Shown here piece after piece: positions 27,716-33,904 of a stretch of 64,000 nt of DNA. This DNA is from Pseudidiomarina planktonica (lineage in GTDB: Bacteria > Pseudomonadota > Gammaproteobacteria > Enterobacterales > Alteromonadaceae). A program made the translations under genes and the position numbers. The stretch lies in NCBI RefSeq assembly GCF_900177775.1, contig NZ_FXWH01000001.1:1-64000 (forward strand), given 5' to 3'. A model generated the notes under the pieces. It did no database searches, was not told where the DNA came from, and saw nothing but the letters and a program-made list of their open reading frames with translations. Position 1 is the first letter of the stretch. Each line of letters begins with the position of its first letter.

Positions 27716-28210
27716 ATGGTTATGCCCGACTTTGACAAAGTAAGTCCGAAGTATCCCAATTATCTGCGTAGCCTGGCCTGGTTAAATACCCTGGGTATTA
27801 TTATTGCGCTAGGCGTTGTCAGCCATTTCGCCTCGCAGCTGTCCTTAACTATGGCTGCGGCTACAGGCGGGTTCGTAGTACTCATAACTCTGGTGTTGCA
27901 CTTTTGGTGGTTACCACGGCGCTATGAGCTAACCGGCTATTGCGTTGACGAAAATCAGTTACAGCTGCGCAAAGGCGCACTATGGCGTACTCGTCAGGCC
28001 GCAGCCATGAATAGAATTCAGCACTCCGAAGTATCGCAAGGGCCCATTGAGCGAGCCTTTGGATTGTCCAGACTCATTGTGTACACCGCTGGTGGCGCCG
28101 GTGCTGACATCAGTATTCCCGGCCTGGCTGATAGCAAAGCCGAGCAACTGAAGGCGCTGGTACTGCATCAAATCATGACTGAACAGCCAGCAGACCAAAG
28201 CCATGACTGA
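27716..28210 (+). CDS. ydbS: PH domain membrane protein, YdbS-like
   Basis: This 164-residue inner-membrane protein has two transmembrane helices (about 20-62) followed by a bacterial PH-like domain (bPH2/DUF304, about 72-155) with the typical LRKGALWRTRQ...MNRIQH block. It forms a pair with the following gene, overlapping it by 8 nt, as ydbS and ydbT do in many bacteria. Its biochemical role is unknown; a membrane-surface or envelope-stress role is family-level inference. A second ATG at 27722 is possible. Confidence 0.8.
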   Translation: MVMPDFDKVSPKYPNYLRSLAWLNTLGIIIALGVVSHFASQLSLTMAAATGGFVVLITLVLHFWWLPRRYELTGYCVDENQLQLRKGALWRTRQAAAMNRIQHSEVSQGPIERAFGLSRLIVYTAGGAGADISIPGLADSKAEQLKALVLHQIMTEQPADQSHD

Positions 28211-29696
28211 GAATTCGAACCAGCAATGGCAGCACCTGCCATTATTTGCGTTGCTGTTTTTCTTTGGCCGGGCGCTATATCAACTTATTCGTAATGCCAT
28301 GAATATGGCGCCAGCACTGGCCGGCGCGTTAGTGTTCAGCGAAACCGTGCGAGCCTGGGCCTTTACCCTGGTGCCGGTAGCCATAGTACTTATAGTTATT
28401 GTGGGTGGCGCTTTGCACTATTGGTACTTTCGCTACTGCGTAGGCGAGCAAACCATTTATATTCGCCAGGGTGTATTTAACCGGGTACAGCTGGCGCTTG
28501 AATACCCTCGCATTCAGCAAGCCGAAATTGATCAGCCATTTTATTTTCGTCCGTTTAACCTGGCCATTCTGACCCTGGATAGCGCCGGCTCTTCTGCTAA
28601 CGAAGTGAAGCTGGCTGGACTGCCCATTGCCACAGCTACCGCAATGAAGCACGACATGTTGCAAGCCCGGCGTGCTGAGCAGAACTTAACCGGAACAGAA
28701 ACGGTCGACGCTTCTGCGGAAGCATCGATGAGCAGCAACATTCTGCTTGAACTTAAAACGCCCGTGCATGAGGTTCTTAAGTTTGGGGTAATGGACAGCC
28801 GCACACTGCTATCCATTCCATTTATTATTGCGCTGCTATTCCAATTTGACCGGTCCATTGGCGTTATTCAGGAATGGGTAATCACAGTAACTGACCAACT
28901 AAGCTCCTATGTGGTTAGCTCCTGGTTATGGGTAGTTCTTGCGGTGGCTGCTATAGCGCTGGTGCTAGTGGGCTCCATGGGATTTGCGTTAGTGCGCTTC
29001 TTTGGCTTTAAGCTCACTGTAGATGACGAAAAATATCAGGCCGAAAGCGGTTTAGTAAGCAAACGCAGCCTGACCATTCGGCAGGAAAAATTACAACTGG
29101 TGCGCATTAAACAAAATTTCGCGGCGCGCTGGCTGAATCGTTTCAGCATACTGATTAAACAATTACAGCCACGAGCCACTGCGGGTGGGGTTAGCAGTTT
29201 TACCATACCGGTGCTATCAGCGACACAGCGAACCCAGTTAACCGATATATTCTCCCTGACCCAGGCCAACTGGCAGCGCGTAAACCCTGCCAGCGTAGTA
29301 CTGCCAACGCTATTCTGGCTGGCGGTGTTACTAACCATAGCCGGATTTAGCGTAACCGACACTCTGCCCAAAGCAATAACTATGGTTGCTATTGGCATAG
29401 CTATACCGCTGATTAGTTGGCGCCGTTGGTATTGCTTTGGATTGCACTGGGACAGCCAATGGCTGGCTGTGCGCACCGGTTTTATTGGTGCCCGACAAAG
29501 CTGGTATCCCGTACATAAACTGCAAAAAGTAACCCTGAGCGAACCGCCCTGGTTACGCTGGTTTGGCATGGCTTCGGTAACTGTTTATACCGCAGCGGGT
29601 GCAGAGCAAGTCAGTTGGTTGAAAAAATCGCAGGCAGAGCAGGTACAGCGGGATATTATAACTGCAGTAAGCAGCCATCGCGGCAGTTGGATGTAA
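28203..29696 (+). CDS. ydbT: PH domain membrane protein, YdbT-like
   Basis: This 497-residue inner-membrane protein has three bacterial PH-like domains separated by paired transmembrane helices. TM pairs lie near residues 12-30 with 50-70, 195-215 with 238-262, and 365-405. The PH domains are near 75-150, 270-345 and 415-490. It is the partner of the preceding YdbS-like protein. The pair is widespread, but its function is not established. It ends 11 bp from the convergent CDF transporter gene. Confidence 0.8.
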   Translation: MTENSNQQWQHLPLFALLFFFGRALYQLIRNAMNMAPALAGALVFSETVRAWAFTLVPVAIVLIVIVGGALHYWYFRYCVGEQTIYIRQGVFNRVQLALEYPRIQQAEIDQPFYFRPFNLAILTLDSAGSSANEVKLAGLPIATATAMKHDMLQARRAEQNLTGTETVDASAEASMSSNILLELKTPVHEVLKFGVMDSRTLLSIPFIIALLFQFDRSIGVIQEWVITVTDQLSSYVVSSWLWVVLAVAAIALVLVGSMGFALVRFFGFKLTVDDEKYQAESGLVSKRSLTIRQEKLQLVRIKQNFAARWLNRFSILIKQLQPRATAGGVSSFTIPVLSATQRTQLTDIFSLTQANWQRVNPASVVLPTLFWLAVLLTIAGFSVTDTLPKAITMVAIGIAIPLISWRRWYCFGLHWDSQWLAVRTGFIGARQSWYPVHKLQKVTLSEPPWLRWFGMASVTVYTAAGAEQVSWLKKSQAEQVQRDIITAVSSHRGSWM

Positions 29697-29707
29697 CGCT
29701 CAATACA

Positions 29708-30613
29708 TTAAGCCGGTGGACAATGCTCATCGCGGCATTGCTCTACCGGAGCTTCCAGCTCAATAGTGGTATGCGCCAGTGAAAATGGCGCCAGCACCTC
29801 AGCCACTTTGGCTTTTAGGTCACGCCGTTGTGGTGCATCAAGATCGTCAGCTAACACCAGGTGCGCAGTCAGTACATGACTCTCGCCATCCAACGACCAC
29901 AAATGCAAGTGATGAACACTTTGAACTGCAGGCAGTTCCTGCAAACTGACCGAAATATTCTGGTACAACTCAGCATCGGGCGTGGCCTGCACGAACAGCT
30001 TCACCGTAGTAACCAGATAACGCGCCACGTTCACCAGAATAAACAGGGTAAACGCAATTGAAAGCAGGGGATCTAACCAGGGCCAGTCAACAAACATCAG
30101 AATGACGCCAACCATAAATACCGCCACCCAACCCATCACGTCTTCCAGCAAATGCCAGTTCAGTACTTTCTCGTTTAACGTTTTACCACGGCTTAACCGA
30201 AACGCGGCGTAGCCATTTACCGCAATACCAACTACTGCCATAACCAGCATACCTTCAGCCATGGGCATTTCTGGTTCCCACAGGCGTGGAATGGCCATGC
30301 TCATAATCCAGACAGACCCGGTGATGAGCACCACTGCATTAATGAGGGCGCCAACCAGTGACAAACGCTGGTAGCCATAAGTAAAAGTGGAGGTTGCGTC
30401 TTTTTGGCCGAGCTTGTTCAACAGCCAGGCCATCCCCAGCGACAGGCTGTCGCCGAGATCATGCACAGCATCGGCCAGAATCGCCGTACTGTTAGTTAAA
30501 ATGCCGCCAATAAATTCAACGACCGTAAAGGCCAGGTTTAGAAAAAACGCCCAGCCAATACGGGTTGAAGCAGTTTCGTTCGGGTGTTCGTTATGATGAT
30601 GGTGCGCGTGCAT
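29708..30613 (-). CDS. Cation diffusion facilitator (CDF) metal transporter
   Basis: This inner-membrane divalent metal/proton antiporter of the CzcD/ZitB type is expected to export Zn or a similar metal. Six transmembrane helices are visible. The transport site is His51 and Asp55 in TM2 with His154 and Asp158 in TM5, a pattern usual for zinc. The N-terminus is His-rich (MHAHHHHNEH) and the C-terminus ends in a Cys-containing tail (CRDEHC), both possible metal ligands. A cytoplasmic metallochaperone-like domain covers about 210-290. It starts 5 nt after the HvfA-like gene, so the two are almost certainly co-transcribed. Confidence 0.88.
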   Translation of the reverse strand: MHAHHHHNEHPNETASTRIGWAFFLNLAFTVVEFIGGILTNSTAILADAVHDLGDSLSLGMAWLLNKLGQKDATSTFTYGYQRLSLVGALINAVVLITGSVWIMSMAIPRLWEPEMPMAEGMLVMAVVGIAVNGYAAFRLSRGKTLNEKVLNWHLLEDVMGWVAVFMVGVILMFVDWPWLDPLLSIAFTLFILVNVARYLVTTVKLFVQATPDAELYQNISVSLQELPAVQSVHHLHLWSLDGESHVLTAHLVLADDLDAPQRRDLKAKVAEVLAPFSLAHTTIELEAPVEQCRDEHCPPA

Positions 30614-30618
30614 TCAGC

Positions 30619-31062
30619 TTAAGCTGCGCCGCACTTACCTTCGCCACATTTCCCTTCACCACACTTGCCTTCACCACATTTGCCTTCTTCAGCCTTTTCT
30701 TCAGCTTTCTCTTTCATTTCTTCGCGCTTCATTTCGCCGCCGCATTTGCCTTCACCGCATTTCCCTTCGCCACACTTGCCTTCCTCAGCTTTCTCTTCGG
30801 CTTTTTCTTTGGCTTCTTTGCGCTTCATTTCACCGCCGCACTTGCCTTCGCCACATTTACCTTCTTCGGCTTTCTCTTCTTTACTTTTTTCAGATTTGTT
30901 TTTTTCTCCGCCACAATTACCTTCGGCAATGCGCGAAACTTCATAACCTTGCTTTAACTCATTAAAGCCAAATGGATTTGCTTCTGCAGCAGTGGCAGTA
31001 AGCGCGGTAGTTAGTGCCAGCGCTGATCCAACAGCAAGAGAAGTAGATGTTCTGTTTTTCAT
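30619..31062 (-). CDS. HvfA-like Cys-rich RiPP metallophore precursor
   Basis: This 147-residue exported precursor has a signal peptide (about 1-26) followed by NPFGFNELKQGYEV, the leader-like block I recognise from the HvfA family. The core holds ten cysteines: one EGNCG (Cys50) and nine EGKCG units in clusters of two, three and four, joined by Lys/Glu-rich linkers. HvfA peptides are modified at EGKCG cysteines by an MNIO (DUF692) enzyme with a DUF2063 partner and bind copper. Neither enzyme gene is adjacent. GAGGAA precedes the ATG. A metal transporter gene follows after 5 nt. Metal binding is inferred from the family. Confidence 0.8.
   Translation of the reverse strand: MKNRTSTSLAVGSALALTTALTATAAEANPFGFNELKQGYEVSRIAEGNCGGEKNKSEKSKEEKAEEGKCGEGKCGGEMKRKEAKEKAEEKAEEGKCGEGKCGEGKCGGEMKREEMKEKAEEKAEEGKCGEGKCGEGKCGEGKCGAA
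30625..30880 (-). repeat. EGKCG-encoding tandem repeats
   Basis: 15-bp units encoding Glu-Gly-Lys-Cys-Gly recur in blocks of four, three and two within the HvfA-like gene. The intervening linkers (residues 77-94 and 109-126) are near copies of each other. The layout suggests growth by duplication and may be length-variable between strains. Confidence 0.85.
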
Positions 31063-31152: not shown

Positions 31153-31182
31153 TTGACATCTTACAAAAAAATAATGTAAATA
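31153..31182 (+). promoter_or_regulatory. Sigma-70-type promoter of the c-di-GMP gene
   Basis: TTGACA (31153-31158), an 18-bp spacer and TAAATA (31177-31182) lie about 80 bp before the start codon at 31262. The surrounding 200-bp gap also has to hold the promoter of the divergent HvfA-like gene. Confidence 0.45.
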
Positions 31183-31261
31183 GTTTAGCACGGTGTAAAT
31201 GACTACGTTAGTAGTGCGCTGATCTGCTATAACTAAGGTGTTGTAGCAAAATAACCGAGTA

Positions 31262-33904
31262 ATGAAGCGTCTTAACGTAAAAGGGTTCTTTTTGCCAAAT
31301 TACAAACATTGCCGCAGTAACCAAGCGAACCGAGCATTTTTATGTTTCGGCAGTTATTTTGTTGCCTTGCTATTGTTGCTTGCCCCCATTTCCGCTATTG
31401 CTCAAAGTGACCCACAGTTGCTTCGCGTTGGCGTTTATCATAACCCTCCGAAGCTATTACTAAGCGACGAAGGACAACCCGGCGGCATTTTGGGTGAATT
31501 GCTACAACATATTGCCGAGCAGGAAAATTGGCGGCTGGAAGTAACACCCTGCACCTGGGACCAGTGCCTGGAATTATTAGATAGCGGTCAAATTGATATT
31601 ATGCCCGACGTGGCTTACTCCGAATCTCGCAACCAACGCTTTAACTTTCATAAAACACCAGCCTTACTCAGTTGGTCGCAGCTGTATCATCACGGCCGCA
31701 CGCCATTAGTAAGCCTGCTGGATTTAAAAGACAAACGCATTGCAGTGCTTAGCAGCTCAATACAGCAAGAATACCTGCATAACATGGTGCAAAGTTTCGA
31801 CCTGTCAGTTAATTGGTACCCAGTAGATACTATGGCGGAAGGATTTAGCGCCGTGTTGGACGGGCGAGCTGACGCCGTTGCAGCCGACCATTTTTATGGC
31901 AACGTACAAGCATACAAGCAAGGCCTTTACGCCTCGCCGATTATGTTTCAACCGGCCAAAATCTACTACGCCACAGCCGATTTTCGCCATGGCGGAACCC
32001 TGCAGATTATTGATGACTACCTGAACCACTGGCAAGGCGACCACAACTCCGTTTACCACCAAATAATACGCAAATGGAGCCTGCCCGAGCAAACCGCGTT
32101 ACTACCCGGCTGGGTGCAGTGGAGTGTTTTTGCGCTGGCCATTGCCTTAGTTATTGCGCTAAGCCTGAACCTGCTATTACGTCGTCAAATTGACGAAAAA
32201 ACCCGTTACCTGAAAGCCAGCGAAAAACGCCTGAACACTATTTTAAACAGCGTTGAGGCCTTTATTTACATTAAAGGTAACGACTTAACCTACCAGTACG
32301 CTAACCGCAAAACCTGTGAGTTGCTGGGCGTTACTGCCGAAGAACTTGTGGGCAAGTCCGACCGCGACTTTTTTGATGAACAAACCGCGCAAATGATTGA
32401 GCGTAACGACCGCCTAGTAGTTGACGAAGGGAAGCGCCTTTCTGAAGAAGAAATAAATGTGCTCGCCAAAACTGGCGAAAAACGAGTGTTCCTGTCGGTT
32501 AAGATTCCGTTGCGCGATGGTAATAACAACAACTATGCCTTGTGTGGTATTTCCACAGATATTACCGAACACCAACAAATTCAGGACGAGCTGCATCATT
32601 TGGCGTTTTACGATTCGCTAACCGGTCTGGCCAACCGCAGACAACTGCTCGAACACATGAAGCATGCCCTTGCCAGTGGTGAAAGAACCGGCTTCGAAGG
32701 CGCCGTGCTCATGATTGATTTAGACGGCTTTAAAGTGTTCAACGATACCGTTGGCCATGAACAGGGCGACCGTTTGCTGCAAAAAGTATCCCAGCGTATT
32801 TCTTCAAGCCTACGAAGCACAGATACCGCCGGGCGCTTAGGTGCCGACGACTTTATGGTGATTTTGGAAGACTTGAGTCCTGATTACGAACAGGCAATTA
32901 TTGATGCGCGCGATTTTGCGATGAATTTACTGCGTGATTTAGCCCAACCTTATCAGTTGGACACCTTAACTCATGTCACCTCGGCAACCATTGGTATTAC
33001 GATGTTCTCGGACACCAAAACCAATGTGGAAGGGCTGCTGAAGAGTGCCGATTTAGCACTTGCTGATGCCAAAGCTTCAGGCCGCGGCACCATGCGCTTT
33101 TTCAATCCGCGCATGCAACAACGGATTTCGCGTCGTATTCATATCGAATCAGCCTTGCGTGAAGCGCTGGAAAGCGATCAATTAGAATTGCATTTGCAGC
33201 CGCAGGTAACCCAGCAGGGCAAGGTGATTGGCATGGAGGCGCTGCTGCGCTGGCATGATGCCGACCTTGGCCAAATGTCACCGGGTGAGTTTATTCCCAT
33301 TGCAGAAAGTAGTGGCCTGATTATACCGCTGGGCGAATGGGTGCTGCAGCGTGCCTGTAGCTTGCTGTCCGAATGGCAGCAGCTGCCGCATATGAAAGAT
33401 CTAACTCTGGCGGTGAATATTAGCCCGAAGCAGTTCCGTCATCCGAAGTTTGTACCGCACATTCTGCATTGCATTCGGCAGGCGAACATTTTGCCCGAGA
33501 AGCTGGAGCTGGAAGTAACCGAGAGCATGCTGATTGATGACATGGCTGGCACCATTTCGCGCATGAATCAGTTACGTGAACGCGGCATACGCTTTGCGCT
33601 GGACGACTTTGGAACCGGCTATGCGTCACTCAGCCACCTGAAACTATTGCCGCTGTACCAGTTAAAAATAGACCAGTCGTTTGTGAAAGAAATAACCACC
33701 GAGAAGAACGACGAAGCCATAGTACAAACCATTATTGCGCTGGGTGGCAGCCTTGGTTTAGAGGTGCTGGCCGAAGGCGTGGAAACCGAAGCACAAATGG
33801 AAAAACTAAAAGCCCTGGGCGTAAACCATTTTCAGGGCTACTACTTCGGCTACCCACAACCTGCCGACCACTGGTTGCAGGAACTGGAAAACACTCAGAG
33901 CTAG
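31262..33904 (+). CDS. Periplasmic-sensor PAS-GGDEF-EAL c-di-GMP protein
   Basis: This 880-residue inner-membrane protein controls cyclic di-GMP. A signal/TM segment (about 28-48) leads to a periplasmic SBP_bac_3 amino-acid-binding-like domain (54-265), TM2 (286-306), PAS (325-440), GGDEF (455-615) and EAL (630-875). The GGDEF motif is altered to GADDF (near 526), though an RxxD inhibitory site (RSTD) is kept. The EAL domain looks active: EALLRW, NISPKQF, EVTES, DDFGTG, the IDQSF lysine and AEGVET are all present. A phosphodiesterase is the more likely net activity. The ribosome site is weak. Confidence 0.9.
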   Translation: MKRLNVKGFFLPNYKHCRSNQANRAFLCFGSYFVALLLLLAPISAIAQSDPQLLRVGVYHNPPKLLLSDEGQPGGILGELLQHIAEQENWRLEVTPCTWDQCLELLDSGQIDIMPDVAYSESRNQRFNFHKTPALLSWSQLYHHGRTPLVSLLDLKDKRIAVLSSSIQQEYLHNMVQSFDLSVNWYPVDTMAEGFSAVLDGRADAVAADHFYGNVQAYKQGLYASPIMFQPAKIYYATADFRHGGTLQIIDDYLNHWQGDHNSVYHQIIRKWSLPEQTALLPGWVQWSVFALAIALVIALSLNLLLRRQIDEKTRYLKASEKRLNTILNSVEAFIYIKGNDLTYQYANRKTCELLGVTAEELVGKSDRDFFDEQTAQMIERNDRLVVDEGKRLSEEEINVLAKTGEKRVFLSVKIPLRDGNNNNYALCGISTDITEHQQIQDELHHLAFYDSLTGLANRRQLLEHMKHALASGERTGFEGAVLMIDLDGFKVFNDTVGHEQGDRLLQKVSQRISSSLRSTDTAGRLGADDFMVILEDLSPDYEQAIIDARDFAMNLLRDLAQPYQLDTLTHVTSATIGITMFSDTKTNVEGLLKSADLALADAKASGRGTMRFFNPRMQQRISRRIHIESALREALESDQLELHLQPQVTQQGKVIGMEALLRWHDADLGQMSPGEFIPIAESSGLIIPLGEWVLQRACSLLSEWQQLPHMKDLTLAVNISPKQFRHPKFVPHILHCIRQANILPEKLELEVTESMLIDDMAGTISRMNQLRERGIRFALDDFGTGYASLSHLKLLPLYQLKIDQSFVKEITTEKNDEAIVQTIIALGGSLGLEVLAEGVETEAQMEKLKALGVNHFQGYYFGYPQPADHWLQELENTQS

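Follow-up and report, generated by a model that had tools for sequence, protein, structure and literature searches.

How does the gene for a captophorin precursor come to stand beside that of a metal exporter, with no modification enzyme adjoining, and where are the enzymes that would act on its product? This question is raised by a gene pair in the window analyzed here, a stretch of 64,000 nucleotides that opens contig C5 of the source genome (G000; 2.57 Mb, 99.6% complete). An hvfA-like precursor gene (30619..31062, minus strand) is followed on the same strand by the gene for an exporter of the cation diffusion facilitator (CDF) family (29708..30613, minus strand), with a gap of 5 nt from the hvfA stop to the CDF start (30614..30618). 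A preliminary description of this DNA had given these coordinates and these families, and both are confirmed (HvfA-type precursor by NF050137; CDF by TIGR01297 and PF01545). It is considered likely that the pair belongs to a split captophorin system of the oxazolin/HvfA type, in which hvfA, probably relocated, has moved to the CDF gene, while HvfB and HvfC were left behind and modify the precursor in trans.

The precursor comprises 147 amino acids. A Sec-type signal peptide read by eye (residues 1–28; 30979..31062, minus strand) precedes a leader block, NPFGFNELKQGYEV (30937..30978, minus strand), which by sequence comparison resembles the NPF...GYQ block of congeneric precursors. The core (30622..30924, minus strand) consists of repeats of about 96 nt with charged linkers, and motif reading assigns its ten cysteines to nine EGKCG units and one EGNCG unit; the cysteine count given earlier holds, but one unit departs from the EGKCG form then ascribed to all. 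With the NCBIfam model NF050137 (KCGExKCG domain), the precursor reaches 47.9 bits (cut-off 19.5, E 7.4e-13); with the HvfA equivalog NF050188, it reaches 48.5 bits, below the cut-off of 95; and a Pfam search at E 0.001 matches zero families. Because the NF050188 cut-off is exceeded in just 2 of the 146 genomes searched, this model is regarded as narrow, and the claim made here is therefore membership of the EGKCG class rather than identity with the HvfA equivalog. A genome-wide search finds one copy of the gene and no second. HvfA is a probable copper-binding peptide.

The downstream gene encodes a predicted zinc-type exporter of 301 amino acids and is the sole PF01545 match in the genome. 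It scores 192 bits with TIGR01297, 130.7 bits with PF01545 (Cation_efflux, cut-off 26.6), and 30.1 bits with PF16916 (ZT_dimer, cut-off 26.7). Among solved proteins, ZnT8 is its best sequence match (E 6.8e-24); the 12 solved matches also take in SLC30A10, a Ca/Mn antiporter, and a CzcD domain. Judged by their E-values, the family assignments of both precursor and CDF are beyond chance. The HDLGD and HLLED sequences are taken to be the HxxxD sites of TM2 and TM5, as in zinc-type members; CDFs bearing such sites are known as zinc-type exporters. The HxxxD sites, the His-rich N-terminus, and the ZT_dimer domain are shared with ZitB/CzcD/ZnT-like exporters, from which the present CDF differs in its pairing with an HvfA gene and in its score with the ZitB equivalog (150 bits, below the cut-off of 408). 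The His-rich N-terminus and CR tail occur in all 29 congener CDF ORFs compared, and the only peculiarity seen in the G000 protein is one extra C-terminal cysteine; like tails in 29 of 29 congener ORFs rule out their being an adaptation to HvfA.

The preliminary description found no modification enzymes, which is correct for the locus but not for the genome. A profile search of the whole genome recovers one DUF692 match (331 bits) and one DUF2063 match, in slightly overlapping ORFs on the same contig about 1.77 Mb from the window, and a genome free of such enzymes is thereby ruled out. The former is an HvfB-family MNIO maturase (402 bits, NCBIfam cut-off 360), and the latter is an HvfC (244 bits, NCBIfam cut-off 142). 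HvfA, the MNIO, HvfC, and the CDF are each single-copy in G000. Over residues 13–274, the alignment of HvfB with the solved protein 3BWW falls into two stretches and covers LDVNN and DTHG, which are taken to hold the counterparts of N175, D242, and H244, residues described as needed for the activity of Haemophilus HvfB (PMC13419390). In the HvfB tree, G000 falls in the clade of the genus (support 100/100, against nine outgroup rows), its position within that clade being unsettled. Its branch (0.64) is among the longest of the genus and is exceeded only by that of G015 (0.82); given this length, the G000 HvfB could be drifting.

What the enzymes act upon is narrowed by the lack of competing substrates. 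The 700 nt upstream of the G000 hvfB match contain no EGKCG-type ORF, nor is one found among the small Cys-rich ORFs in the surrounding 19 kb, and a genome search finds no DUF2282. A second precursor, near hvfBC or elsewhere in G000, is thus ruled out, as is a DUF2282 protein as alternative HvfBC substrate. The pair of enzyme genes sought in the preliminary description exists, but no other precursor copy accompanies it. Since the enzyme pair and the precursor each occur once in the genome, modification in trans offers the simplest account, and of the two options left standing earlier, enzymes acting in trans or an unmodified peptide, the former now appears favored. Modification from another locus has been proposed for bufferin precursors encoded away from MNIO genes (Antoine et al., PMC12452194).

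The latter option would make the relocated HvfA an unmodified, plain-thiol periplasmic buffer fed by the CDF, with HvfBC a leftover or serving another substrate. NF050188 matches occur in 77 of 146 genomes, the source genome included, and nine of these 77 (G028, G033, G037, G051, G058, G062, G065, G076, and G081) harbor neither DUF692 nor DUF2063. The three precursors examined among them (L025, L026, and L030) retain many EGKCG units, such that HvfA seems to persist without the enzymes in some members of the family; unmodified precursors are also raised by Antoine et al. (PMC12452194). For G000, however, this option is improbable. The genome keeps HvfBC above the cut-offs, searches for another EGKCG precursor or for DUF2282 find none, and the HvfA of G000 keeps the genus-type NPF..GY leader, from which the enzyme-free copies read differ.

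The former position of hvfA is revealed by the congeners. In a genus sample of 26 genomes, including G000, an MNIO match is present in 22 of the others and absent from G010, G021, and G025. In all 22, hvfB is directly preceded by an EGKCG precursor, which ends about 20 nt or less from the start of the hvfB match; the count includes G001 and G016, in which only the 3′ end of the precursor is present at a contig edge, and the precursors of G024 and G001 were missed by tblastn and found by motif reading. The usual order is TPR-hvfA-hvfB-hvfC. By tblastn, hvfC and a response regulator lie downstream in 22 of 22 congeners, the TPR gene lies upstream in 20 (the other two being contig-edge cases), and apt lies downstream in 18, no copy being found beside the locus in G001, G007, G014, and G016. 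The name TPR follows Pfam, while response regulator, apt, EAL-type, bPH2-like, and Dus are names assigned by eye. The response regulator that follows hvfC in these 22 genomes and in G000 is CheY-like (L002 6313-7315; L094-L115). Of note, G025, which lacks MNIO and DUF2063 by HMM, contains a 61-aa match to HvfC (39% identity, E 3e-4; L135 67-249, minus strand), either a remnant or chance.

G000 retains TPR, hvfB, hvfC, the response regulator, and apt in the congeneric order without hvfA. A terminator-like hairpin follows the TPR gene, one of two such sites in the region against 2.8 expected. At the old locus, where congeners show the end of hvfA, hvfB carries its own GGAG and ATG, which also speaks against the idea that hvfA, being a tandem repeat, was misplaced during assembly. 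Such an artefact is very improbable, as the whole gene, signal peptide included, lies inside a 1.83-Mb contig, and the longest repeat array row is only 223 nt. The relocation may have been a direct transposition, or hvfA may first have been duplicated and its original copy then lost. The old hvfA gap and the new site have no 10-mer in common; a single 12-base direct match between the old and new regions lies beside the EAL-type gene and may be fortuitous.

The site now occupied by hvfA is a neighborhood largely shared within the genus. A convergent gene for a bPH2-like membrane protein (28203..29696, plus strand) neighbors the CDF gene here and in five congeners, and a divergent GGDEF/EAL-like sensor gene (31262..33904, plus strand) lies beyond hvfA; both were identified by eye. 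In G014, G001, G009, G024, and G025, a CDF gene with a product 66–70% identical is convergent to the same bPH2-like gene, and hvfA is absent. The EAL-type gene, inverted in G000, is co-directional with the CDF in G014, G001, G009, and G024. In G014 and G001, its end lies about 10 nt upstream of the CDF, and a divergent ORF of 350–357 aa separates the two in G009 and G024. In G025, a divergent 359-aa ORF lies upstream of the CDF, and no EAL-type match is found in the 18 kb covered. In G000, hvfA stands between the inverted EAL-type gene and the CDF. Because these congeners have the CDF locus without hvfA, the gene is best seen as an addition to an otherwise shared neighborhood, in a slot of variable content.

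The preliminary description had suggested looking for the same gene pair in related genomes, and none of the other HvfA and CDF loci examined shows it. Among the 76 other HvfA-positive genomes, 22 carry an HvfA copy without an adjacent MNIO when coordinates are compared by eye; G103 and G075 have theirs at contig ends, where adjacency cannot be judged, and G143 also carries a normal copy. The flanks of HvfA (about 1.5–3 kb, shorter at contig ends) were searched for the CDF by tblastn (E 0.001) in 69 other genomes, namely 59 of the 76, with all 22 just mentioned, and ten unreported by the HMM (eight congeners, G129, and G142); the remaining 17 of the 76 have an MNIO adjacent by coordinates and lie outside this test. 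No CDF match is found in any of the 69, and the G000 locus is positive. Likewise, no HvfA match is found at the 29 CDF rows examined of the 39 from other genomes of the genus (10 rows outside).

When 84,980 species are scanned with a pattern that joins an EGKCG end to a subsequent His-rich start, two matches are obtained, neither of which is a pair. The pattern is restrictive, demanding a GGC codon, an ATG no more than 30 nt away, and three His codons in about the next 30 nt; the scan possibly omits G000 or its near relatives, making this a partial negative. The ORFs listed for one match (L130) include none that is HvfA- or CDF-like by eye, and this match is attributed to chance; the other (L131) is followed directly by HvfB- and HvfC-like ORFs, with no CDF in the part listed. 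Within the limits of the flank, CDF-row, and pattern-scan searches, a conserved HvfA–CDF pairing is ruled out. Given its absence near HvfA in the 69 genomes and from the restrictive scan, the pairing looks lineage-specific.

These results bear on whether the adjacency has any functional meaning. It may be accidental, with hvfA inserted in a variable slot, modified in trans, and without functional link to the exporter; this account is compatible with both relocation and trans modification and denies only the coupling. The slot upstream of the CDF indeed differs between congeners (G014/G001, G009/G024, and G025), the pairing is unseen at the other HvfA and CDF loci examined, and the sites and tail type of the CDF match those of the 29 congener ORFs. 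On the other hand, the 5-nt same-strand spacing makes co-transcription of hvfA and the CDF gene likely, and both genes are metal-related, each being the sole member of its family found in the genome. On balance, accidental adjacency is given an even chance.

Control elements were also considered. A weak promoter-like pair upstream of hvfA (TTTACA-17-CATTAT; 31171..31199, minus strand) is not above chance, with one found against a mean of 1.9 in shuffles, and no above-chance promoter-like site is found there. A perfect 9-bp inverted repeat with a 3-base spacer lies immediately upstream of hvfB (G000:C5:1798164-1798184; L141). This palindrome occurs once genome-wide with three mismatches allowed, ruling out its being an operator common to the hvfBC and hvfA–CDF loci, and no other control element shared by the two loci was found.

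The following course is proposed for the split system. The hvfA gene is missing from its place in the TPR-hvfA-hvfB-hvfC order of congeners and stands instead upstream of a CDF gene whose surroundings congeners share, with which it makes up a two-gene unit. Most likely, HvfB and HvfC from the old locus act in trans in the cytoplasm and oxidize the cysteines in the EGKCG units of HvfA to 5-thiooxazoles. The modified peptide would be exported by Sec and serve in the periplasm as a chelator of soft metals, mainly copper. Its gene is probably co-transcribed with that of an exporter moving zinc-type cations into the same compartment, where the co-expressed HvfA could buffer the exported metal. Such buffering is weakened by the CDF being ordinary for the genus, by the pairing being seen nowhere else, and by the absence of a shared control element; the functional link to zinc is the weakest part of the proposal. 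Recruitment of hvfA from a biosynthetic operon into a zinc-exporter operon, such that a thiooxazole peptide made in trans buffers or accepts CDF-exported cations, is a tentative and rather unlikely extension. If true, it would extend captophorins from copper to zinc-type metals.

The precursor and enzyme class and the separation of precursors from MNIO genes are known already; a CDF partner for an HvfA-type precursor, which the preliminary description believed to be undescribed, fits as new within the literature searched. A DUF2063-type enzyme is reportedly part of the Microbulbifer mmr cluster. HvfBC-type pairs are described as converting EGKCG cysteines to 5-thiooxazoles whose products bind copper (PMC13097082, PMC13419390), with about 4 Da lost per repeat in fontiphorin (PMC13097082). 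The Haemophilus influenzae hvf/oxazolin operon (HvfA, HvfB, HvfC, and HvfX; PMC13419390), as described, shares with the present system EGKCG repeats, an HvfB-type MNIO, an HvfC-type partner, and, as judged by eye for G000, a signal peptide; here, in contrast, about 1.77 Mb separates precursor and enzymes, and the precursor gene has a CDF gene as its partner. Fontiphorin FonABC (PMC13097082) and Microbulbifer mmrABC (PMC12538549) have the same type of precursor and an MNIO, and FonABC also a DUF2063-type enzyme. Both are described as contiguous clusters, whereas the G000 precursor lies apart from its enzymes. The main texts of these two papers do not mention transporter, efflux, zinc, or cation. 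The stand-alone Buf_EGKCG/oxazolin precursor genes (PMC12452194) are likewise apart from MNIO genes, but here the congeners reveal the ancestral position and the gap left; the text of that paper does not mention CDF, cation diffusion, or cation efflux. No paper joining DUF692 with a cation diffusion facilitator was found in a search of mostly open literature, covering main texts without supplements.

The new pairing is thus an unusual rearrangement, not a new kind of system. Its value lies in a clean natural split, in which precursor, MNIO, partner, and CDF each occur once in the genome and 22 congeners show the usual order. The split locus permits a simple test of trans modification for a Sec-exported RiPP precursor. 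It also makes a case for asking whether the metal range of captophorins goes beyond copper, a question left by PMC13097082.

Further observations concern copies of the two genes elsewhere. Within the flanks covered, a Dus-like gene (tRNA-dihydrouridine synthase, by eye) accompanies 16 of the 22 HvfA copies without an adjacent MNIO (L006, L008, L012, L026, L028, L030, L116, L117, L120, L122-L125, and L127-L129) and is divergent to hvfA in those examined. The response regulator and apt also trail some orphan hvfA copies without hvfBC (L026, L028, and L030). In several congeners, highly similar CDF copies adjoin an RND-type ORF (CzcA-like, by eye; L069, L071-L073, L075-L078, L080, L088, and L089); these copies, some of them close to recombinase- or transposase-like ORFs, look like a mobile metal-resistance island.
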